Of a stretch of DNA of 64,000 nt, positions 33,750 to 43,011 are shown piece by piece (position 1 is the stretch's first letter; each line of letters opens with the position of its first letter). Source of the DNA: Rhizobium sp. WSM4643 (GTDB lineage Bacteria; Pseudomonadota; Alphaproteobacteria; Rhizobiales; Rhizobiaceae); contig NZ_CP104040.1 in NCBI RefSeq assembly GCF_025152745.1, positions 2,542,001 to 2,606,000 of the forward strand, read 5' to 3'. Below the pieces are notes generated by a model that saw only the letters and a program-made list of their open reading frames with translations, did not search any database and was not told the DNA's origin. The position numbers were made by a program, and so were the translations under genes.

Positions 33750-34523
33750 ATGAAAAGGCGGACCCTTGTGCTTGGCGGTGCGGCCATTGTCGCATCATCC
33801 GTGGCTGCGGCAATCTGGCCGCGGCGGCATATCGCTGTTGCCGCCAGGACATTCGAATGGAAGGGAACCGATTTCGTAAGCGGCGGCACGAAATCGGTTA
33901 TCTTGGAAAAGCTGCCCGAGCCGCTCTTCCGTAGCCGTCCGAATTGCGTCGTCACCGTCGCCCAGACCCTTGGCCCCTGCCATGTCAACAATGTCCCGGC
34001 CCGACAGGACGTCTCGGAAGGAAAGACCGGGCTGCCTTTGCGGCTCGACGTCCGCATCGTTCATGCCGCCGATTGCCGGCCGATCGAAAATGCCGATATC
34101 GAAATCTGGCATACCGATCATCGCGGCATCTATTCCGGCCGCGAGGCTGCGGAGATGTGCACTTTCGGCGATGCCGAGGCGATCAGCGGGCTCGCCTTCC
34201 GCGGCCGCCAGCTGACGGATGCCAAGGGGCAGGCAAGCTTTTTGACGGCCTATCCCGGATGGTACAAGGGCCGCACGCCGCATGTTCATTGCCGTATCCT
34301 CGTCGACGGCAAGGAGCTACTCGTCAGTCAGATCTATTTCGACGATGCGCTGAGCGACATCATCTATGGCGAGCATCCTGACTATCTCGGGCGCCCTGCC
34401 CGCGATACGCGCAACGACGAGGACGGCATCATCCCCGAAGACGCCGCCGATCACATCTTCGATTTCGAGAAGCTCGATGGCGGCGTGCTGTCCGCCACCA
34501 TCACCATCGGTCTTTCTGCCTGA
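33750..34523 (+). CDS. Tat-exported intradiol ring-cleavage dioxygenase-like protein
   Basis: A 257-residue protein with a twin-arginine-like N terminus (MKRRTLVLGGAAIVASSVAA). The mature part has the intradiol dioxygenase fold: VTVAQTLGPCHVNNV, IEIWHTDHRGIYSG (candidate Tyr iron ligand), GWYKGRTPHVHCRILVDG (Tyr, Arg and the H-x-H iron ligands) and LLVSQIYFDDALSD. Cytoplasmic relatives cleave catechol or protocatechuate; exported ones act on unknown aromatics. It stands alone on the plus strand. Confidence 0.88.
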   Translation: MKRRTLVLGGAAIVASSVAAAIWPRRHIAVAARTFEWKGTDFVSGGTKSVILEKLPEPLFRSRPNCVVTVAQTLGPCHVNNVPARQDVSEGKTGLPLRLDVRIVHAADCRPIENADIEIWHTDHRGIYSGREAAEMCTFGDAEAISGLAFRGRQLTDAKGQASFLTAYPGWYKGRTPHVHCRILVDGKELLVSQIYFDDALSDIIYGEHPDYLGRPARDTRNDEDGIIPEDAADHIFDFEKLDGGVLSATITIGLSA

Positions 34524-34657
34524 GCGCAGGTAACCTGGGGAATGCATGGCCGGAGCTGTAGATCGCCATCCGCGAAGGTCCGTATTGCAACTTCGCCAAG
34601 ACAAGATAATCGGGATACTATGCTTCCCGGTTCAGACCAGAGTGTTGAGGATGGAGG

Positions 34658-35221
34658 ATGAGGATGCGAGGTTTTGGGTTTGTTGCGCTCTTCAACCTCG
34701 GAGCCATGCTGGCAGCCGGGCCGACCAGTGCATGTATTGATATTGCCTCCATGGACCTTCACGATGTTTCATATGCAGACGTCGTGGTCGTTGGTCGCGT
34801 GACGAAATACACGTTGGTTCTCGACCCCGAGGCGAGGAAACGACATCAGGAATTCCTTGCCCACAGTAGTGGCAAAGTCCGGGAACTTCTCGGGAACGCG
34901 AATAGTTTTATGACTGACTATGCGCGCTTGGAGATCGTGGTCGAGGAAGTTCTGCGTGGCACGGCGCCTCATACCCTCACCGTGACCTGGGATAACACCG
35001 CATTCAGCGAGATCATGCCGCCTACCTCCTACCTTATAGCCTTGCGCAGTTCAGGCTCACCGCTGCCGCCACTTCGAGGTCCCACCGCCACTATTCTTCC
35101 GGACCCGGATCCGGCTTCCCTGTCTGTCCTGCGGGCGCCGTGTTCCGCTTCGTTCTTTTTCGAAAACACCAGCAGTGATGCAGGTATTGTTCGGCAAATA
35201 TTGAACTCAGGGCCCAAATGA
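34658..35221 (+). CDS. Exported hypothetical protein, 187 residues
   Basis: A Sec signal peptide (MRMRGFGFVALFNLGAMLAA, cleavage after GPTSA) is followed by a secreted domain beginning at a cysteine: CIDIASMDLHDVSYADVVVV, GRVTKYTLVLDP, YARLEIVVEEVLRGTAPHTL, TVTWDNTAFSE and SYLIALRSSGSPLPPLRG. The beta-rich pattern resembles extracytoplasmic proteins that precede a VXXVLKG-type domain. I do not recognise a named family. Several ATGs lie in a row, and GGAGG is next to the first. It is 134 bases downstream of the dioxygenase on the same strand. Confidence 0.72.
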   Translation: MRMRGFGFVALFNLGAMLAAGPTSACIDIASMDLHDVSYADVVVVGRVTKYTLVLDPEARKRHQEFLAHSSGKVRELLGNANSFMTDYARLEIVVEEVLRGTAPHTLTVTWDNTAFSEIMPPTSYLIALRSSGSPLPPLRGPTATILPDPDPASLSVLRAPCSASFFFENTSSDAGIVRQILNSGPK

Positions 35222-35408
35222 ATCTTTTGAGGCGATGACGAGCTTGCTGGAACTCGAGTTCGTCCTGGATGGCGGCAATGTCAATGCCGCTCGTGCGCGT
35301 CGGTTGCCGCCCGCCTGCACCTCGGCGGCCATTTCGAGCACTGGCGGTGCGAGGCAGAAGCTTTCGCTCTCTACCTGATAGAACTGGGACGAGCTCTATG
35401 ACCGCCGC

Positions 35409-36185
35409 CTATATGCCCGCATACCATTCGTAACCGCGATCCTCCCAGAAGCCGCCATTGCCGCCGTAGAGCTGGCCGAGATCGGCGACGGCTTCGATGC
35501 CGGTCAGGTATTTTGCCTGCTTGTAGCCGAGCTGACGCTCGACCCGGAGCCTGAGCGGCGCGCCGTGGGCGACTTCGAGATCGCGGCCGTTCATGCTGTG
35601 GGCAAGGATCGTTTGAGGGTGGAACGCATCGACGAGATCGATGCTTTCGTAATACCAGCCGCTGCCGTCGAGCGTCTTTTCGTATTCGTCGGCGCAGTGG
35701 AAGACGATGTAGCGGGCTTCGGGTTTCAGGCCCGCCGCCTGCAGCAGCGCGCCGAGCGGCACGCCGGTCCATTTGCCGATCGCGCTCCAGCCCTCGACGC
35801 AGTCATGCCTGGTGATCTGCGTGCGGGCCGGCAGGGCTTTCAGCTCCGCCAGCGACAGCTGCATCGGCCTGTCGACCAGCCCGCCGATCTCGAGCTTCCA
35901 GCTCGAAAACCGCTGGTTCATCCAGTCACTATACCGGGCATTGTCCGGCATGCTCGTGCCATTGGCGCGGAAGGTCGGCGAGATATCGGCTTCCGTGAAT
36001 TCGCGGGCGAGCGCGTCATCGCCAAGCAAGAAGCGCTGCGTCTTCATGCTGAAGCCTTCGGCGATCTTCAGAACCGATTTCGTTCGATCGTTTTCGACGA
36101 GGGCATCGCAGCCGGCAAGCCCCAGCGCCGATGCCGTCATGGTTGCGCCGATCAGGAAGCGACGCCTTGTAATGATGCGGCTCAT
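35409..36185 (-). CDS. yedY1: YedY-like molybdopterin oxidoreductase (methionine sulfoxide reductase type)
   Basis: A 258-residue periplasmic Moco enzyme of the sulfite-oxidase fold. The N terminus has a Tat motif (SRIITRRRFLIGA) and a lipobox-like LAGC. RHDCVEGWSAIGKWTGVPLG contains the cysteine that binds the Mo cofactor, and IVFHCADEYEKTLDGS, PQTILAHSMNGRDLEVAHGA and PLRLRVERQLGYKQAKYLTG complete the domain. It overlaps the cytochrome b gene by four bases (ATGA). By context it would reduce oxidised methionine in the MXKDX peptide, as YedY1 does in Azospira; the substrate is inferred. Confidence 0.88.
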   Translation of the reverse strand: MSRIITRRRFLIGATMTASALGLAGCDALVENDRTKSVLKIAEGFSMKTQRFLLGDDALAREFTEADISPTFRANGTSMPDNARYSDWMNQRFSSWKLEIGGLVDRPMQLSLAELKALPARTQITRHDCVEGWSAIGKWTGVPLGALLQAAGLKPEARYIVFHCADEYEKTLDGSGWYYESIDLVDAFHPQTILAHSMNGRDLEVAHGAPLRLRVERQLGYKQAKYLTGIEAVADLGQLYGGNGGFWEDRGYEWYAGI

Positions 36186-37024
36186 GACTTTCCTCCCTGC
36201 CCGATGTCGTAATAGCCTGTGATCATCGAACGCAGATTGTTGAACACGCCCGAGACCAGCACCATCGCCACATGCACGGCGACGAAGGCGACGAGCGAGA
36301 AAGCGGTCAGGAAATGCAGCGTGCGGGCCGATTGCCGGCCGCCGAACAGATCGAGCAGCCAGGGCGCGACCGCATTGAAGCCCGGCGACATGGTAAGGCC
36401 TGTCCCGATCATCAGTGGCAGCAGCACGAAGATCACGGCGACATAGGCGAGTTTCTGCAGCGTATTATAATGGCGTGCCTCGGCGCCCTTGGGAAAGCGC
36501 AGCCGGGCATGACTGACGATCTCATGGCCGAGATGCGAAGGCTTCAGTTCTTCGACCGCCGGCAGCAGATCGCGTCGGAAATGCCGGCTGACAAAACCGT
36601 AGGCAAGATAGATGAAGCCGTTGATGACCAACAGCCAGGCAAAGAAGAAATGCCAGCGCCGGCCCGATGCCAGATCCTGATAGCTCGGCAAGGTCAGCCA
36701 GTTCGGAAAACCGCGCACTGCAGCCTCGCCGTCGACATTCGAAACCCCGAGAACGCCCGTCGTGTCGAAGCTCAATCCACCCACGCGCGTCACCCCCTTC
36801 AGCGCATCGCCTTCCTGCTCCGCCTCCATGGAAATGAAGGATGGATCGTCATCAGCGCCGTACTGCCCCCAATAGAGCGCCGGGTGGGCATTGAATATCT
36901 GCAGGCCGCTGAACAGCAGCACCGTCATGCACAGCACGTTCACCCAATGCGACAGGCGCACCAGCAGGCCATGGCGGTAGAAGAGCGTAGATCCGCTCGC
37001 CGTGCCGGCATCGGTCGTGGCCAT
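36182..37024 (-). CDS. yedZ1: Membrane cytochrome b561-type subunit, YedZ1-like
   Basis: A 280-residue di-heme b-type cytochrome. FYRHGLLVRLSHWVNVLCMT holds the first heme-ligand His, WHFFFAWLLVINGFIYLAYG another, and TLHFLTAFSLVAFVAVHVAM the C-terminal pair; there are four main helices. A periplasmic loop after helix 1 holds WGQYGADDDPSF. GGAGG lies seven bases before the ATG at 37024. It passes electrons from the quinone pool to the Moco protein encoded by the overlapping gene. The pairing and the MXKDX gene upstream identify it as the YedZ1 type rather than the YedZ/MsrQ type. Confidence 0.88.
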   Translation of the reverse strand: MATTDAGTASGSTLFYRHGLLVRLSHWVNVLCMTVLLFSGLQIFNAHPALYWGQYGADDDPSFISMEAEQEGDALKGVTRVGGLSFDTTGVLGVSNVDGEAAVRGFPNWLTLPSYQDLASGRRWHFFFAWLLVINGFIYLAYGFVSRHFRRDLLPAVEELKPSHLGHEIVSHARLRFPKGAEARHYNTLQKLAYVAVIFVLLPLMIGTGLTMSPGFNAVAPWLLDLFGGRQSARTLHFLTAFSLVAFVAVHVAMVLVSGVFNNLRSMITGYYDIGQGGKS

Positions 37025-37067
37025 TATAGTTCCTCCAAATCGACATGAAAGGCCTGACAAAAGAAGA

Positions 37068-37101
37068 CGCGGCCGCCGGCGATAAAGTTTCAGCGGCCGC
37101 G
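37068..37101 (-). terminator. Intercistronic hairpin between the peptide and cytochrome genes
   Basis: CGCGGCCGC at 37068-37076 pairs with GCGGCCGCG at 37093-37101. It lies directly after the MXKDX stop and before the cytochrome ribosome-binding site. A strong intercistronic stem can cause partial termination or protect the upstream mRNA, allowing much more peptide than reductase to be made. The stem is seen; the effect is inferred. Confidence 0.55.
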
Positions 37102-37108
37102 GCTAAAC

Positions 37109-37378
37109 TTACTTCATCGCGTCGCAGGCCTTCATCATCGTGTCCTTCTTCATCATGTCCTTCTCCATGCCGGCATTGTGCATGCAGTCGGCCTTGGTGC
37201 TGCCGGTCGCCATTGCGTCTTTCGACATTGCATCCTTGGACATGGCGTCCTTCGACATCGCATCGGTCTTCATGCTGTCTTTCTTCATGGCATCGCTGCT
37301 CTGGGCGCTGGCCGCGCCGGCAAGCGACAGGCCGATGACGAAGCTGCAGGCGGCAAGGCTGGAAAGGATCTTGGTCAT
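37109..37378 (-). CDS. mrpX: Methionine-rich MXKDX-repeat periplasmic peptide (MrpX-like)
   Basis: An 89-residue protein. A 25-residue Sec signal peptide (MTKILSSLAACSFVIGLSLA, then GAASA) leaves a mature peptide of 64 residues with 13 methionines and many lysine-aspartate pairs: DAMKKDSMKTDAMSKDAMSK, then further DAMSKDAM units, then GMEKDMMKKDTMMKACDAMK. It matches the pentapeptide MXKDX repeat family (TIGR02953). GAGGAG lies six bases before the ATG. In Azospira an equivalent peptide is a sacrificial scavenger of hypochlorous acid, regenerated by YedY1/YedZ1. The same role here is inferred from gene order. Confidence 0.9.
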   Translation of the reverse strand: MTKILSSLAACSFVIGLSLAGAASAQSSDAMKKDSMKTDAMSKDAMSKDAMSKDAMATGSTKADCMHNAGMEKDMMKKDTMMKACDAMK

Positions 37379-37440
37379 GAGGGTCTCCTCGGATCGATTG
37401 ACATGCCCGCCGGCACCCGCCGACGACTCACAGTCCTGAA

Positions 37441-37466
37441 TTCGATCTCCTTGCGAAGACGGTTAC
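37441..37466 (-). promoter_or_regulatory. SigF-type ECF promoter for the mrpX operon
   Basis: On the minus strand GTAACC (37466-37461) and CGAA (37444-37441) are separated by exactly 16 bases. This agrees with the GTAACC-N16-CGAA element that I recall for the SigF/NrsF family in Caulobacter. It leaves a leader of about 55 bases before the mrpX ATG. Confidence 0.72.
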
Positions 37467-37492
37467 AGCCTCACGCTTATGTGATAGCGCTA

Positions 37493-37550
37493 CAGCGCCG
37501 CGCGCCTTTTGGAGACGCGCAAAGGACGCTGTACACTTTGAATTGCTGCA
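37493..37550 (+). repeat. Dispersed palindromic intergenic repeat, copy 3 (first half only)
   Basis: CAGCGCCGCGCG, AGACGCGCAAAGGACGCTGT and ACTTTGAATTGCTGCA match the first half of the element at 43163 almost base for base. The second hairpin is missing. It lies between the two divergent SigF-type promoters, so it separates rather than disrupts them. Confidence 0.75.
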
Positions 37551-37571
37551 GGAACATTTTTGAACCTGCCT

Positions 37572-37596
37572 GTAACCAAAGCGTCATCCACCCGAA
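37572..37596 (+). promoter_or_regulatory. SigF-type ECF promoter for the sigma-factor operon
   Basis: GTAACC (37572-37577) and CGAA (37593-37596) are separated by 15 bases, one less than in the divergent partner. CGAA is only 16 bases from the sigma-factor ATG, so the transcript would have almost no leader. It indicates autoregulation of the sigma factor. Inferred from motif match. Confidence 0.6.
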
Positions 37597-37612
37597 TGAT
37601 ATTGCAGACGAC

Positions 37613-38161
37613 ATGACGAGCACCCATTCGGAACAAGCACTGAAGATGCTGATGCTTCTTTCCCTCGATGGGGACGAGATAGCCTATCGGCGTCTGCTCG
37701 TGACATTGCGAACCCTGCTCGTCGGTTATTACGGCGGGCGGATCGGCACTTCCGCGAAGTCCGACACGGAAGATCTCGTGCAGGAGACGTTGCTGGCGCT
37801 GCATTCGCGCCGGGCGACCTATGACAGGGAGCGGCCCTTCACCGCGTGGTTCTTCTCGATTGCCCGCTACAAGCTGATCGACCACCACCGAAAGCATGGC
37901 GGCCGGTACAAGGCGGAAATAGAACTGGACGAAGAGATCGAAGACGACTTCAGGGAGGATGCGATTGCAGCGCGCATGGATGTCGAACGGCTGTTGAACG
38001 GCCTGCCGCAGCACCAGCAGGAGTTGATCCGGCAGATCAAGCTCGAGGGGCAGTCGGTGGCCGACACGGCAATCCGCACCGGACAGTCGGAATCGGCGGT
38101 CAAGGTCGGCGTTCACAGGGGCATCAAGGCGCTGGCGGCAAGATTGCGAGGTGGAATGTGA
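37613..38161 (+). CDS. sigF: ECF RNA polymerase sigma factor, SigF/NrsF group
   Basis: A 182-residue ECF sigma factor. Region 2 contains SDTEDLVQETLLALHSRRAT and YDRERPFTAWFFSIARYKLI, followed by DHHRKHGGRYKAEIELDEEI. Region 4 contains LNGLPQHQQELIRQIKLEGQ and TAIRTGQSESAVKVGVHRGI. It has no ribosome-binding site of normal strength, which fits the very short leader predicted from its promoter. The anti-sigma gene overlaps its stop by four bases. It should activate itself and the divergent mrpX-yedZ1-yedY1 operon when NrsF releases it. Confidence 0.9.
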   Translation: MTSTHSEQALKMLMLLSLDGDEIAYRRLLVTLRTLLVGYYGGRIGTSAKSDTEDLVQETLLALHSRRATYDRERPFTAWFFSIARYKLIDHHRKHGGRYKAEIELDEEIEDDFREDAIAARMDVERLLNGLPQHQQELIRQIKLEGQSVADTAIRTGQSESAVKVGVHRGIKALAARLRGGM

Positions 38162-38802
38162 GAGAAACTGAGGACGTGATCGACAGCCTTGTCCGGGATC
38201 TGAAGCCGGTACCGACGCATGCGCTCGAACGCCGCTTCGCGCTCGCCATCCTGCCGGCCTTAGCAGTCTCGCTGCTGCTGATGCTTATGGTCGTCGGCCT
38301 TCGCACCGATATGGCTCAGGCTCTGATGCTGCCGGTCTTTTGGATCAAGTCCGCCTACAATGCCTTGCTCGCAATCGCCGCCTTCGCGGCCGTTTACCGC
38401 CTGTCCCGGCCGGATGGCTCGGAAGGCCGCTTTTTCGGCATTGCCGCGGCCATCATACTCGCTCTCGCCGTCATGGCGGTCATCCAGCTCGCTTTGTCGC
38501 CGGCCGCAAGTTACACCGTTCTGGTGCTCGGCTCCTCCGCCCTGCATTGCCCGCTGCTGATCTTTGCCTTTGCCACGCCGATCCTGATTGCAAATACCTG
38601 GGTTCTCCGTGGCGGCGCGCCGAGCAACCTCGGCATTACAGGCTTCATCGCCGGCATTGCCGCCGGCGCATCCGGCGCCTGGGTCTATTCCTGGTTTTGT
38701 ACGGAAAACGGCCTGCCCTTCGTCACCCTCTGGTATTCGCTCGGCATCCTCTTGACCGGTGCAATCGGCGCCCTCCTCGGGCCTCGCCTCCTGCGCTGGT
38801 AG
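38158..38802 (+). CDS. nrsF: NrsF-type membrane anti-sigma factor (DUF1109)
   Basis: A 214-residue inner-membrane protein with about six helices, starting with GTG in a GTGA overlap with the sigma-factor gene and preceded by GAGGTGG. The N-terminal cytoplasmic segment is DSLVRDLKPVPTHALERRFA, and helices follow from about residue 27. Two cysteines at residues 131 (SSALHCPLLIF) and 181 (YSWFCTENGLPF) are placed at membrane borders, as expected for the conserved pair in this family that senses oxidants or metals. It would hold SigF inactive until oxidised. Family is clear; the signal is inferred. Confidence 0.9.
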   Translation: MRETEDVIDSLVRDLKPVPTHALERRFALAILPALAVSLLLMLMVVGLRTDMAQALMLPVFWIKSAYNALLAIAAFAAVYRLSRPDGSEGRFFGIAAAIILALAVMAVIQLALSPAASYTVLVLGSSALHCPLLIFAFATPILIANTWVLRGGAPSNLGITGFIAGIAAGASGAWVYSWFCTENGLPFVTLWYSLGILLTGAIGALLGPRLLRW

Positions 38803-38985
38803 CACCGGCCGTAGGATTGCTGTGCCGATTGTCCCGCAATGCCGAGTTCGGTCGAAGACGCCCAGCACCGCGACGCTAATCCTTCATCCGGCATGAAACC
38901 AGATGCAGCATTCCTGCGTACTACTCTGGGGATGGGTCTTGCGTACCCCCTGAATGGGAAAAGACAGGCGGCGAGGAATGACGGC

Positions 38986-39267
38986 ATGGTCAGGAAAGAA
39001 GGCGTAGCCCATATCACCCGGCAAGCCGCGGAACAGGGGCTGGCCAGGCTGATGATGAGGCTGCCTGCGACGCGGGCGACGATCAGAACAGCCGCGGCGA
39101 GCCAGCCCCATTTTTACGAATTATGCGGCGCCTACGGCGAAGCCTGCGCCGTCCTCGATCGCATGCGCCGGGATAGATCGGCCGATCCCGCAATCATCAC
39201 CGAATACGAGATCATCTGCGCGGAAATCGAAGTCGACGTCATCAGGATCCTGCTCGGCGATCAATGA
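38986..39267 (+). CDS. Hypothetical protein, 93 residues
   Basis: A small helical, basic-then-acidic protein (MVRKEGVAHITRQAAEQGLA, RLMMRLPATRATIRTAAASQ, HFYELCGAYGEACAVLDRMR, IITEYEIICAEIEVDVIRIL). The two cysteines in the HFYELCGAYGEACA segment are six residues apart. GAGGA precedes the ATG by about eight bases; a longer in-frame start at 38839 has no ribosome-binding site. I do not recognise the family. It lies 183 bases after nrsF and is probably a separate transcript. Confidence 0.6.
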   Translation: MVRKEGVAHITRQAAEQGLARLMMRLPATRATIRTAAASQPHFYELCGAYGEACAVLDRMRRDRSADPAIITEYEIICAEIEVDVIRILLGDQ

Positions 39268-39314
39268 GACTTCGCAAGTGCTGGGCGGACTGCCGCCGCG
39301 ATGATGCAACGCCA

Positions 39315-40808
39315 TCAGCTCAGCAAATCATTCACATGGATGGAGACGCTCAGCGTATCCGTGTCAAAATGCAGCGAAGTCCCATCGGAGATCTTGTAGT
39401 GGAAGGTGTCGCTCACGTCTCCGCTGAGCCCGGCGAGTTTCGCCGCGTCGGCCGTATAGGTGTAATCGCCGTCACTGTCGACATGGATGGTGCCGTATTT
39501 GCCGGTCAGCGTCACGCCGTCCTTGTCGACGAATTCGCCCTCGAAGCGGCGAAGCAGCAGGGTTCCGTTGGCCGAGCTGTCGTTTTCGAGGAGATTGCCG
39601 TAATGGGCGGCGTCCAGATCGGAGGCGATTTTCAGGCTGTCATGGGTTGCGACAAGCGCAGGCGCCGTGTCCGTGTGCGTCACATCGCCGACCGCGAGAC
39701 TATCGCTGCTCGCAAGCATCGTCGCCTGGGCCTCGTCGAGCGTCGTGTTGTTGCTGACGGGAAAAGTGTTCGCGGCGATGATGGTGGGGGAGATGCTGTA
39801 GGGCGTGACATCGCTGGCGATGACATTGTCGTGGAACGAGCCGGATGCCGGCCTGTCGACCTTCAGCGCCGCTGAGGACAGGTCATCGAAAACGTTGCCG
39901 TAGATATTGATATCTTCGCGAACGTAAGTGGGGGTGCCGACAGCGCTGATCGCCACGCCCCATACGCCGTCATGGATGTAATTGCCCGAGATATCGTAAT
40001 CCCGCGTGTCGCCCTGGTCGCCGAGGCCGATAGCGTAGGACCAGCTATAGCCGCCATAACCTGAAATATCGTTGTCGTGAATAGCGACGTTGGTGCCGGC
40101 TTGTGCGCCGATCCCGAAGCCGCCACCGATAATCGCGTTGTCCTCGACCAGGACATTGACAGGCCGAACGAGCGCGATGACGCCTTTCGGCGTCGCTGCA
40201 CCCGTCTGGTCGAGGTAATTGCCGCTGATCACGATGTTGCTGCTGTCGTTCATCTGCACGGCATCTGCGGCGGTGCCGTGAGCGTTGGTGACGGTGTTGT
40301 TGAGAAAATTGACGCCGTTGATCTTCTCGATCCAGACGCCGTCGCCGTTGACGTCGTTGATCGTGCTGTTTTCGATGGTGATGTTCGAGCCGGTCCTGAA
40401 CGTGACGGAACCTGACTTGCCCGCCAAACCGGTATGATCGACCTCGACGTTGCGCACGGTCCAGTTCGAAACATATCCGCCATAGATGGCTGCCCCGCCT
40501 GTGTCCGATATCTTGATATTCTCGATGACGATGTTCGATGCATAAAGGCTGTGAATACCATCGCCGGGGCTATGGATGACTGGCGCATCGCCGACCCCGT
40601 AGCTGCCGATGGTGATCGGGGCACTCACTGTGCCGGAATATTTCAGATCGAGCTGGTCATTGAACACGCTTCCGGCGGCAAGCAGCACGCTGTCGCCCGG
40701 CTGCAGCTTCAAGCTTTCCACCGCCGAGAACGACGAAAACGGCGTGTCCTCGCTCGTTCCGCTGTTGCCGTTGGAGCCTATCGCCGGATTCACATAATAG
40801 ATCGTCAT
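39315..40808 (-). CDS. Right-handed beta-helix protein with VCBS-like tail, paralog 1
   Basis: A 497-residue protein without an N-terminal signal peptide. Residues 1-50 read MTIYYVNPAIGSNGNSGTSE, a short lead-in typical of polysaccharide-active beta-helices. Residues about 60-380 form repeated parallel-beta-helix turns (NIVIENIKISDTGGAAIYGG, NITIENSTINDVNGDGVWIE, NIVISGNYLDQTG). The last about 100 residues are a cadherin/VCBS-like domain (NLLENDSSANGTLLLRRFEG, GTIHVDSDGDYTYTADAAKL) ending DLLS. The lack of a signal and the C-terminal repeat domain fit type I (PrsDE-like) export. Substrate unknown; a polysaccharide is likely. Confidence 0.85.
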   Translation of the reverse strand: MTIYYVNPAIGSNGNSGTSEDTPFSSFSAVESLKLQPGDSVLLAAGSVFNDQLDLKYSGTVSAPITIGSYGVGDAPVIHSPGDGIHSLYASNIVIENIKISDTGGAAIYGGYVSNWTVRNVEVDHTGLAGKSGSVTFRTGSNITIENSTINDVNGDGVWIEKINGVNFLNNTVTNAHGTAADAVQMNDSSNIVISGNYLDQTGAATPKGVIALVRPVNVLVEDNAIIGGGFGIGAQAGTNVAIHDNDISGYGGYSWSYAIGLGDQGDTRDYDISGNYIHDGVWGVAISAVGTPTYVREDINIYGNVFDDLSSAALKVDRPASGSFHDNVIASDVTPYSISPTIIAANTFPVSNNTTLDEAQATMLASSDSLAVGDVTHTDTAPALVATHDSLKIASDLDAAHYGNLLENDSSANGTLLLRRFEGEFVDKDGVTLTGKYGTIHVDSDGDYTYTADAAKLAGLSGDVSDTFHYKISDGTSLHFDTDTLSVSIHVNDLLS

Positions 40809-41244
40809 ATCGCCTTGTTCTCGAATTGCCGCGCAGCCGTCTGGATCAGCTGCGACACGTGGATCGGATGTGGTCGGGGCTAAAGGCCGTGGCCTTCGAG
40901 TTGCCTTCACGACGGTCGGCAGACCCTGTGGGCCTGCCTTGGTCCCGAGAACGCCTGGCGGAGGCGGTATCCTAAAAATGACAACTTATACGGAAAAAAT
41001 CTACCAAAAAGCGACCGAAAGGTGAATAAACGGTAATCGTCCTCCTTGGCGACGTATGGTCGCAGGAGTGTAGACGTTCTGTTTCAGGTCAGTCGCCAGC
41101 CGGAAAGGTTGAGGCCGCTTGCAGCCCCTTACCCTCACCCGGCGACAGCCGGATGAGGGACGCTGTGAAGCCATTTGGTGGCGAGAGCAACGCCTCCCCG
41201 GAAGGAAGGTCTCCGGGCGTAGCGCCGCTCCCGGCACGCTCACC
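40809..41244. other. Intergenic region with terminator-like hairpins
   Basis: No gene. CCCTCA..CCGGC at 41132-41143 pairs with GCCGG..TGAGGG at 41148-41159 to form a strong imperfect stem downstream of paralog 2 (minus strand). The segment at about 40975-41035 (ACAACTT then GCGACCGAAAGGTGAATAAA) resembles the upstream region of paralog 2 at about 42910-42955, so the two genes share promoter sequence. Confidence 0.5.
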
Positions 41245-42732
41245 TCAGCTCAGCAAGCCATCCAGGTGGATGAAGACGGTCAACGTATCCCCGTCGCTAT
41301 GATGCGAGCTTCCATCGTTGATCCCATAGGTGAAGGACTCGCTTACATGTCCGCTATGGTCAGGGAGTTTCGTTTCATCGAGCATGTAGGCGTAGTTGCC
41401 TTCCCGGTCCACATGGATGTCGCCGTATTCCCCGGTCAGCGTCAGGCCGTGCTTGCCGACGGTTTCGTCCCCGAAGCGCCGAAGCACCAGGGTGTCATTG
41501 TCCGAGCTGTCGTTTTCGAGGAGATTGCCATGATGGGCAGCGCCCGTATCGGTCAGGATCTTCAAATTGTCATGGACAGCGACGACTGCCGGATCCGCAG
41601 CCGACTCCGTCGCTGCAGCGGTCTTGGCAACCGGGCTCGCCAGCGCCGTCTCGACATTGGCGACCGTATGGTTGTTGCTGACGGAGAAGGTGTGCGCGCC
41701 GACGATATCAGGCGATATGCTGGTGGCCTTGACGCCGCTCTCGATGGTATTGTTGGAAAAGGAGCCGGATGCGGGCCTGTCGACATTCAACGCCGCCTGT
41801 GAGAGGTCGTCGAAGACATTGTCGTGGACCTTGATATTCGTGCGGTCATAGCTCGGGCTGCCGGCAGCGGAGATGACCACGCCCCGGGCGCCGTCATGGA
41901 TGTGGTTGCCCGCGATATCGTAGTCTCTCGTATCGCCCTTGTCGCCGAGACCGACGGCAAAGGACCAGCTGTAGCCGTGAAAACCCGATATGTCGTTGTC
42001 GCGGATGGCAACATTCTTGCCGGCCTGCGCGCTGATGCCGAAGCCGCCGCCGGTAAGCACATTATCCTCGACCACGGCATTCACCGGCCTGACGAGAGCG
42101 ATAACGCCCTTCGGGCTATCGGCATGCGTCTGGTCGAGATGATTGCCCTTGATCAGAATGTCGCTGCTGTCGTTCATCTGCACGGCATCGGCCGTCGTCC
42201 CATGGGCGTTGGTCACGGTATTGTTGAGAAGCTTGATGCCGTTGACCTTTTCGATCCAGAAGCCGTCACCTCTGACGTCCGAAATCTTGCTGTCTTCGAC
42301 CGTGATGTTTTTGCTGCTCCGAAAGGTCACGGCACCGGCGTTTTCCGACAATCCAGTCTTGGCGATCTCGACGTCGCGGACCGTCCAGTTCGTGACACTG
42401 CCGCCATAGATGCCAGCACCTGCTGTATTCGATATCTTCAGGTTCTCGATGACGATGTTTGAGGCATAGAGACTGTGGATGCCGTCGCCGCTGCTGTGGA
42501 TGACGGGCGCAGCGCCCGTCCCGTAACTGCCGATCTTGATCGGCGCATTCTCGCTGCCGGAATATTTGATATCGAACTGCTCGTTGAACACACTTCCCTT
42601 GGCAAGAAGCACGCTGTCGCCGGGTTTCAGTTTCAAGGATTCCACTTTGGACAAAGTCGCAAAAGCCGAGTTCTGGCCCGTTCCACCGTTGCGGTCGGAA
42701 CCAGTCGCTGAGTTCACATAGTAGACTGTCAT
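41245..42732 (-). CDS. Right-handed beta-helix protein with VCBS-like tail, paralog 2
   Basis: A 495-residue tandem paralog of the next gene downstream, with the same start (MTVYYVNSATGSDRNGGTGQ), the same beta-helix turns (NIVIENLKISNTAGAGIYGG, NITVEDSKISDVRGDGFWIE, NNTVTNAHGTTADAVQMNDS) and the same VCBS-like tail (NLLENDSSDNDTLVLRRFGD, GDIHVDREGNYAYMLDETKL) ending DGLLS. Divergence is spread across the protein, with short stretches identical. No signal peptide. A surface or secreted role on polysaccharide is inferred. Confidence 0.85.
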   Translation of the reverse strand: MTVYYVNSATGSDRNGGTGQNSAFATLSKVESLKLKPGDSVLLAKGSVFNEQFDIKYSGSENAPIKIGSYGTGAAPVIHSSGDGIHSLYASNIVIENLKISNTAGAGIYGGSVTNWTVRDVEIAKTGLSENAGAVTFRSSKNITVEDSKISDVRGDGFWIEKVNGIKLLNNTVTNAHGTTADAVQMNDSSDILIKGNHLDQTHADSPKGVIALVRPVNAVVEDNVLTGGGFGISAQAGKNVAIRDNDISGFHGYSWSFAVGLGDKGDTRDYDIAGNHIHDGARGVVISAAGSPSYDRTNIKVHDNVFDDLSQAALNVDRPASGSFSNNTIESGVKATSISPDIVGAHTFSVSNNHTVANVETALASPVAKTAAATESAADPAVVAVHDNLKILTDTGAAHHGNLLENDSSDNDTLVLRRFGDETVGKHGLTLTGEYGDIHVDREGNYAYMLDETKLPDHSGHVSESFTYGINDGSSHHSDGDTLTVFIHLDGLLS

Positions 42733-43011
42733 ATCGCCATGTTGCCCTGTTCGTCGGATCGCTAATGTCGCCGCCGGGACCGCCCAGGATCGGCTGATCG
42801 CATGCGGCGGGGGCAACCGGCCACGGCAAAAAGGCGATAAGATGTTGTCAATGGGGCAATGCGCGCCTCGCGGACCTTATTCCACAGGCAATGGCCTGGT
42901 GTGACGAAAGTTACAACTTTGGCCGAGAAATCGGCGACTTAGAGATGAATAAATCGCTGCGTGTTTGCGCGAGGTGTACGTCGCCTTCTGTCTGCGCGTC
43001 ATGTGATTCGT

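Follow-up and report, generated by a model that had tools for sequence, protein, structure and literature searches.

A conserved ECF16-type sigma factor locus of Rhizobium sp. WSM4643 with a methionine-rich peptide and a predicted lipoprotein molybdenum enzyme: a likely oxidant-defence operon

In Brucella melitensis, the bcrXQP operon is induced by hypochlorous acid (HOCl) under the control of the sigma/anti-sigma pair BcrS/AbcS, its deletion lowers survival under HOCl at 1.5 h, and the survival of the mutants under H2O2 is described as comparable to that of the wild type, with data not shown there (PMC8315932). The reduction of the oxidized peptide of this operon by its molybdenum (Mo) enzyme is a proposal in that paper too. 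The SigF/NrsF/MrpX/YedYZ set of Azospira suillum is reported, cited here at second hand (PMC4623255, PMC8315932), to use methionine cycling for the detoxification of hypochlorite. In the current study, we analyzed a stretch of 64,000 nucleotides of Rhizobium sp. WSM4643 (contig NZ_CP104040.1, positions 2,542,001 to 2,606,000), hereafter the window, which carries a gene cassette of this kind.

The cassette (35409–38802; Table 1) consists of a sigF–nrsF operon divergent from an operon encoding a methionine-rich peptide, a b-type cytochrome, and a Mo enzyme. The open reading frames and their family profile matches bear out the five genes of the original prediction, and its assignment to the SigF/NrsF/MrpX/YedY1/YedZ1 kind is also supported, with Brucella as the closer experimental counterpart (PMC8315932). 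The locus deserves its description as complete, although MsrPQ and a second cytochrome/Mo-enzyme operon are present elsewhere in the genome. The Mo enzyme gene overlaps the cytochrome gene by 4 nt, as sigF does nrsF given the chosen starts, which were set within longer mechanical open reading frames with the family length as a guide. The cassette is real, well conserved, and of a kind already described in Brucella and Azospira; what is added here is its separation from MsrPQ, the lipobox as a family trait, a hairpin, invariant peptide cysteines, and a sister operon.

We consider it likely that the cassette is an ECF16-switched oxidant-defence operon acting in the periplasm (ECF, extracytoplasmic function), with a peptide recharged by a lipoprotein Mo enzyme and a cytochrome. 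The switch would respond to an oxidant, for which HOCl or some other reactive chlorine species is the most likely candidate; NrsF would be altered at its conserved cysteines and release the sigma factor, which would transcribe its own operon and the divergent peptide operon via two GTAAC/CGAA promoters. The secreted peptide would be oxidized in place of envelope proteins, and the membrane-tethered Mo enzyme would turn the methionine sulfoxide of the peptide, and perhaps of other proteins, back into methionine, using electrons taken from quinol and supplied by the FdnI-like b-type cytochrome, while the intercistronic hairpin would raise peptide output above that of the enzymes. For this rhizobium, we infer the sulfoxide reduction, the peptide as substrate, the electron path, and the stoichiometry, whereas HOCl induction, sigma control, and HOCl protection are proposed by analogy.

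Table 1. Features of the cassette, with positions in the window.
Feature	Coordinates	Strand	Details
Mo-cofactor enzyme gene	35409..36185	-	258 aa; PF00174 127 bits
b-type cytochrome gene	36182..37024	-	280 aa; PF01292 88 bits
Hairpin between peptide stop codon and cytochrome gene	37068..37101	-	11-bp stem, fold of the 87-nt gap
MxKDx methionine-rich peptide gene	37109..37378	-	89 aa; TIGR02953 75.8 bits, cut-off 41
ECF16-type promoter motif TGTAACC-N16-CGAA, peptide operon	37441..37467	-	motif search
ECF16-type promoter motif TGTAACC-N15-CGAA, sigma operon	37571..37596	+	motif search
ECF sigma factor gene (SigF/BcrS-like)	37613..38161	+	182 aa; PF04542 and PF08281 (sigma regions 2 and 4) above cut-off
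NrsF-type anti-sigma gene	38158..38802	+	214 aa, GTG start chosen; PF06532 222.8 bits, full length

The conservation of the arrangement was evaluated in the best 80 of 578 relatives retrieved by the Mo enzyme, which are not a census. The Mo enzyme was accompanied by the cytochrome, the methionine-rich peptide, and the sigma factor in the arrangement of the window at 51 of these 80 loci, the named cassette loci (Mo enzyme identity of at least 77%; 52 cassette rows with the window), and the closest named ones were R. laguerreae, R. ruizarguesonis, and R. johnstonii, each with 98% identity, which assigns the genome to the Rhizobium leguminosarum group. All five genes kept this arrangement at 50 of the 51 loci, and a coincidental gene order was therefore rejected. 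The exception is L036, where NrsF was not found and the SigF match fell in two pieces. These data place the putative reactive-chlorine defence cassette in named Rhizobium, Neorhizobium, Agrobacterium, and related genomes. The remaining 29 loci, with enzymes of 66–71% identity, gave no match to the sigma and anti-sigma factors of the window in the DNA examined.

The regulatory pair is of the ECF16 type, as indicated by the adjacent sigma and NrsF genes, two conserved cysteines, and the GTAAC/CGAA promoter, which was recognized by motif. Cys131 and Cys181, the residues originally pointed out, are the only cysteines of NrsF, and both were kept in 51 of 51 aligned rows. The equivalent cysteines were mutated in the NrsF of Caulobacter (PMC3511200), and those of OsrA in Bradyrhizobium are important (PMC3420878). 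The six helices that had been predicted for NrsF derive from its family assignment (PF06532), whereas our hydropathy scan gave four strong segments. With 146.4 bits against the 300-bit cut-off of the NCBIfam equivalog NF042994 (AntiSigF_NrsF), the protein is, by model score, a relative and not the same equivalog.

The peptide gene and sigF are separated by 234 bases, in which two opposed motifs lie back to back; these motifs resemble the promoters GTAACC-N16-CGAA of Caulobacter (PMC3511200) and TGTAAC/GCGAAA of Brucella (PMC8315932). The pattern GTAAC-N14..18-CG[AT]A was present on the peptide side at 49 of the 51 cassette loci, on the sigma side at all 51, and on both sides at 49, as compared with one of 51 for the reversed motif on either strand. 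With CGAA only, the counts were 49, 32, and 32; the pattern was widened once the remaining 19 sigma-side loci were seen to read CGTA, a variant that fits the Bradyrhizobium consensus (PMC3420878). The related loci share ancestry, and these counts are not independent. Among the seven motif matches outside the window, no convincing target gene was seen when they were judged by eye; at one of them (L001), a transporter-like reading frame begins 35 bases past the motif start.

The Mo enzyme begins with a signal like that of twin-arginine translocation (Tat) substrates (RRRFL), followed by the lipobox LAGC at residues 23–26 (Cys26) and Asp27, and, as a predicted Tat lipoprotein, it would be anchored to the membrane. 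An aspartate after the lipoprotein cysteine acts as an inner-membrane retention signal in E. coli. The lipobox, pointed out earlier as a possible difference from the known enzyme, is not confined to this strain: all 52 cassette rows have L-x-G-C, followed by Asp in 51 of them, and of the 30 rows of a second type described below, 29 have L-x-G-C and one reads ISGC. A stricter pattern was matched in 47 of 51 cassette and 29 of 30 second-type loci. A lipobox was likewise seen in every one of 29 loci fetched later in which the Mo enzyme was matched (28 L-x-G-C, one LSAC); five of them (L105, L107, L109, L110, and L112) repeat named records, 24 are new, and 14 lie outside the class, where the following residue is often Ser, Asn, or Thr. 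Since it is present in every peptide-linked relative checked, the lipobox seems to characterize the enzyme family as a whole. The active-site motif CVEGW contains Cys129 and Glu131, both found in 82 of 82 rows, and CVEGW recurs in all 29 later-fetched loci. The best solved-structure match was 1xdq, which we take to be E. coli YedY, with the Cys and Glu aligned (CVEGW/CVEAW). This structure entry is titled 'Bacterial Sulfite Oxidase'. The AlphaFold model of the enzyme (mean predicted local distance difference test score, pLDDT, 47.7) was not used.

The cytochrome starts at an ATG preceded by GGAGG, and an alternative TTG start giving 292 aa is also open. Hydropathy indicated four hydrophobic segments with a long loop between the first two, and histidines 18, 26, 125, 148, 172, 237, and 251 are invariant among 26 aligned sequences. 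A sequence profile of 26 cytochromes found no match among solved structures. The AlphaFold model (pLDDT 70.2, predicted template modelling score 0.64) was matched by Foldseek to 1kqf_C of formate dehydrogenase N (E 0.014) and 4gd3_A, the cytochrome b of hydrogenase-1 (E 0.024), both with probability 1.0 but weak E-values, and with no match under E 0.001. No match to MsrQ (NF003831) or PF01794 was found at E 0.01. By family profile and model comparison, the cytochrome is thus a PF01292 protein nearest to FdnI/HyaC and not an MsrQ/YedZ of the E. coli type.

Concerning the relation to MsrPQ, the earlier description as a b-type cytochrome with a YedY-like enzyme holds at the level of PF01292 and PF00174, but the pair is not MsrPQ by model score. 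The Mo enzyme reached 99.3 bits against the MsrP model NF003767 (cut-off 207), and the genome has its own MsrP with 488.9 bits beside an MsrQ with 152.4 bits (cut-off 130) near C1:1548123. This MsrPQ operon (L093, 641–2316; about 1548 kb on C1) has both genes above the NCBIfam cut-offs. The identification of the cassette pair as MsrPQ was rejected, and results obtained with MsrPQ therefore need their own test before they are transferred to the cassette.

The company of the peptide gene in other genomes was compared at 25 loci besides the window, taken from the 26 family genomes with a TIGR02953 match. The enzyme, cytochrome, sigma factor, and NrsF were all found near the peptide at seven loci (L105, L107, L108, L110, L111, L112, and L113), and the same without NrsF at L109; L116 and L117 carry a variant whose sigma pair is nearer to the type found on contig C3 of our genome, and L118 has the enzyme and cytochrome only. 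At L123, the sigma gene start lies at the contig end, with no enzymes in the 3 kb downstream of the peptide. Outside the class, 14 of 15 loci with a peptide above the family cut-off also carried the cytochrome and the Mo enzyme in the 5.4–8.5 kb fetched, with PF01292 and PF00174 confirmed in both loci tested (L171 and L176). The enzymes of these loci have 34–38% identity to that of the window in 12 of the 14 and 53% in two; L176 and L179 also carry SigF and NrsF, and L181 a sigma factor only. A pairing kept across such a distance argues for a functional link between the peptide and the enzymes.

The genome contains a second operon (L099, 3373–5737; about 450.4–452.7 kb on C3, probably a plasmid) with genes for a 208-residue protein, a cytochrome (58% identity to that of the window), and a lipobox-bearing Mo enzyme (67%), adjoined by a TetR gene. 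Taking L099 together with the 29 remaining loci of the best 80 as the second-type set (n = 30), the gene of the 208-residue protein precedes the cytochrome and enzyme genes in 26 of 30, with a TetR gene in 24 of those 26. This protein has a signal-like N-terminus and no Pfam match above cut-off. The other four comprise L068 and L079, which have a methionine-rich peptide instead, L072, which is cut off, and L082, which has neither. A search with PF06532 located four NrsF genes in the genome, that of the window and three on C3 with two sigma factors: the two further SigF–NrsF loci (L099, 7447–9552, with a tandem second NrsF gene, and L100, 3588–4777) each carry the motif GTAACG-N-CGAA ahead of the sigma gene, at a distance of about 40 nt. 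The genome also has two MbnB/TglH/ChrH genes. At L103 (1450–2802; about 797 kb on C1), one such gene (DUF692) accompanies a DUF2282-like precursor gene (identified by eye), as in a bufferin operon, and this precursor gene is preceded by an ECF16-like GTAACG-N-GCGAA motif, which by hand count lies about 50 nt upstream of it.

Several observations weigh against the recharging of the peptide by the enzyme pair under a chlorine-responsive switch. The reductase activity of the Mo enzyme is predicted, and the MsrP model, its best NCBIfam match, stays below the cut-off. The peptide was matched without any partner at 11 of the 25 family loci, and at L106 (genome G336) and L129 it stands with the sigma pair, and neither a cytochrome nor a Mo enzyme was matched in the 6.5 kb examined; the L129 peptide is an Ala-rich DAM repeat. 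The sister operon L099 has no methionine-rich peptide and, as this peptide-less type occurs in 26 of 30 loci, the substrate of the enzyme need not be the peptide. Genome-wide, TGTAACC-CGAA gave 9 matches against 11 for reversed controls, that is, no enrichment and no regulon, and the evidential weight therefore rests on the position and conservation of the motif. In Brucella, the sigma deletion differed from the wild type only at 4.5 h (PMC8315932), and other ECF16 factors answer other cues, namely H2O2 for EcfF of Bradyrhizobium (PMC3420878) and dichromate for SigF of Caulobacter, which controls DUF2282/DUF692 genes (PMC3511200).

Some of these points would also suit a general repair of oxidized envelope proteins by the enzyme pair in the manner of MsrPQ, with the peptide acting on its own as a co-regulated sacrificial scavenger that receives no special recycling. 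The close paralogue of the pair without a peptide and the two loci with a peptide and sigma pair but without the enzymes fit this explanation, which we nevertheless regard as rather unlikely, since the genome already owns MsrPQ for that task and the peptide and the pair stay together at 14 of 15 out-of-class loci despite the great sequence divergence of the pairs.

The mature form of the peptide, taken to begin after ASA at residue 25 by motif alone and not by a signal-peptide program, has 64 residues with 13 methionines, in agreement with the earlier description if the cut is there, and two cysteines; at least 13 methionines would occur with a probability of 6e-9 at an assumed methionine frequency of 2.5%. 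No Trp, Tyr, or Phe was present in the mature peptides of 52 rows (50 loci L009–L058, L079, and the window; L067 and L068 left out). In overlapping genome samples, TIGR02953 was matched at E of at most 0.001 in 19 of 150 order, 26 of 199 family, and 54 of 398 phylum genomes, and above its cut-off in 12, 14, and 35 of them, respectively. In the order sample, NrsF was found in 48 genomes and the Mo enzyme query gave matches in 128, mostly at the level of the wider family. The weak TIGR02953 matches are not all this peptide, because the one in G127 (L132) resembles a DUF2282-type precursor and stands beside an MbnB-like gene. DUF2282 precursors are bufferins.

Cys65 and Cys85 of the peptide are present in 52 of 52 cassette rows and His67 in 50 of 52, a conservation that would also suit a peptide serving mainly as a metal (copper) buffer, in which these residues and the regular methionines bind Cu(I) and the regulator senses metal or metal-driven oxidation. 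The dichromate response and the DUF2282/DUF692 targets of Caulobacter SigF (PMC3511200), the relation of DUF2282/DUF692-type operons to copper-binding bufferins (PMC12452194), and the ECF16-like motif before the DUF2282-like gene of one of the two MbnB/TglH/ChrH operons here point in the same direction. The copper function is nonetheless improbable: metal storage would hardly call for a Mo enzyme and a b-type cytochrome, the Brucella data indicate HOCl (PMC8315932), and the cysteines are not general, being at other positions in the two-cysteine peptides of L068 and L079 and absent from the predicted mature part of the out-of-class peptides of L171 and L176, which have MSKDA/S-type repeats. It is more improbable still that the Mo enzyme dehydrogenates sulfite or reduces small-molecule sulfoxides and has a purely regulatory link to the peptide, for which the sulfite-oxidase fold family and matches to the SorA, SoxC, and SorT models speak, but these matches are far below their cut-offs, the best solved structure is 1xdq with the Cys and Glu in place, and MsrP is the best NCBIfam match, though below cut-off.

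Returning to the recharged peptide, its supply relative to the enzymes may be set by the hairpin, which lies directly 3' of the peptide stop codon and is G+C-rich (-31.0 kcal/mol, z -2.3). Dinucleotide shuffles and random stretches served as controls. A stem of at least 8 bp was found in the first 60 nt at 45 of the 51 cassette loci, as compared with 132 of 1020 stretches drawn at random from the same loci and with 14 of 51 loci after the Mo enzyme gene. The six loci with shorter stems in these 60 nt include three (L055, L056, and L058) that form a long stem in a 75-nt fold. The 5' arms of the longest stems comprise 33 distinct sequences, with the stem kept. The shuffle z of the whole gap was below -2 in 36 of 52 rows, and the effect is therefore partly one of composition. 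The hairpin probably yields the peptide in excess over the enzymes and may act as a terminator, an attenuator, or a 3' stabilizer.

We tentatively suggest that the peptide-linked pair might form a separate family, distinct from MsrPQ, in which a short Tat-lipoprotein Mo reductase works with a quinol cytochrome like formate dehydrogenase gamma and is specialized on a repetitive methionine peptide. The hairpin would set the peptide excess, the two invariant peptide cysteines could give the alphaproteobacterial cassette a second role in thiol-based sensing or buffering, and the sister operon of the same genomes would pair the same kind of enzymes with a different secreted protein.

As for the surroundings of the cassette, no Rfam match above the gathering score was found in 34000–40000 of the window, and a tRNA search of the window found none. 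A protein with a Dioxygenase_C domain (PF00775) and a signal-like N-terminus is encoded at 33750–34523, and two similar, adjacent right-handed beta-helix proteins with a C-terminal Ig-like domain at 39315–40910 and 41245–42816 on the minus strand.

Among the known systems, MsrPQ (YedYZ) of the E. coli type shares with the cassette a Mo enzyme of the sulfite-oxidase fold with a Tat-like signal and CVExW, adjoined by a membrane haem protein; the enzyme of the window differs in being shorter and lipobox-bearing, and its cytochrome belongs to PF01292 instead of PF01794. SigF–NrsF of Caulobacter and RpoE7 (ECF16) of S. meliloti resemble the window in the type of sigma and anti-sigma factor, the conserved cysteines, and the GTAAC-CGAA promoters, but their targets, in the available accounts, are DUF692/DUF2063 operons and, in Caulobacter, the YedY-like CC2748, with no methionine-rich peptide operon among them. 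EcfF–OsrA of Bradyrhizobium is likewise an ECF16 pair with conserved Cys129/179 and methionine sulfoxide reductases in its regulon; it differs from the window in being H2O2-inducible, and its reductases are annotated as acting on peptide methionine sulfoxide, with no Mo enzyme in the regulon table consulted. The role in the plant oxidative burst that had been suggested for the cassette is unsupported: rpoE7 and target fusions of S. meliloti did not respond to H2O2, Cd, or chromate and its ECF mutants were reported as symbiotically normal (PMC6180224), and the H2O2 survival of the Brucella mutants agrees with this, with the H2O2 response of Bradyrhizobium EcfF as a counterpoint. The Azospira suillum set has, by description, the same functional genes as the window (PMC4623255, PMC8315932), and the MxKDx peptide, b-type cytochrome, and Mo enzyme stand under a sigma pair, as judged by motif, in the manner of bcrXQP and MrpX–YedYZ. 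In Brucella, the cytochrome is described as homologous to MsrQ (PMC8315932), whereas that of the window is a PF01292 protein with no match to the MsrQ model; the two were compared by description, and the difference may be one of naming only. The bcrS-abcS/bcrXQP set resembles the window in its five gene kinds in divergent operons, the order X-Q-P, an MxKDx peptide, an NrsF-family anti-sigma factor with Cys129/179, and TGTAAC-CGAA promoters (PMC8315932).

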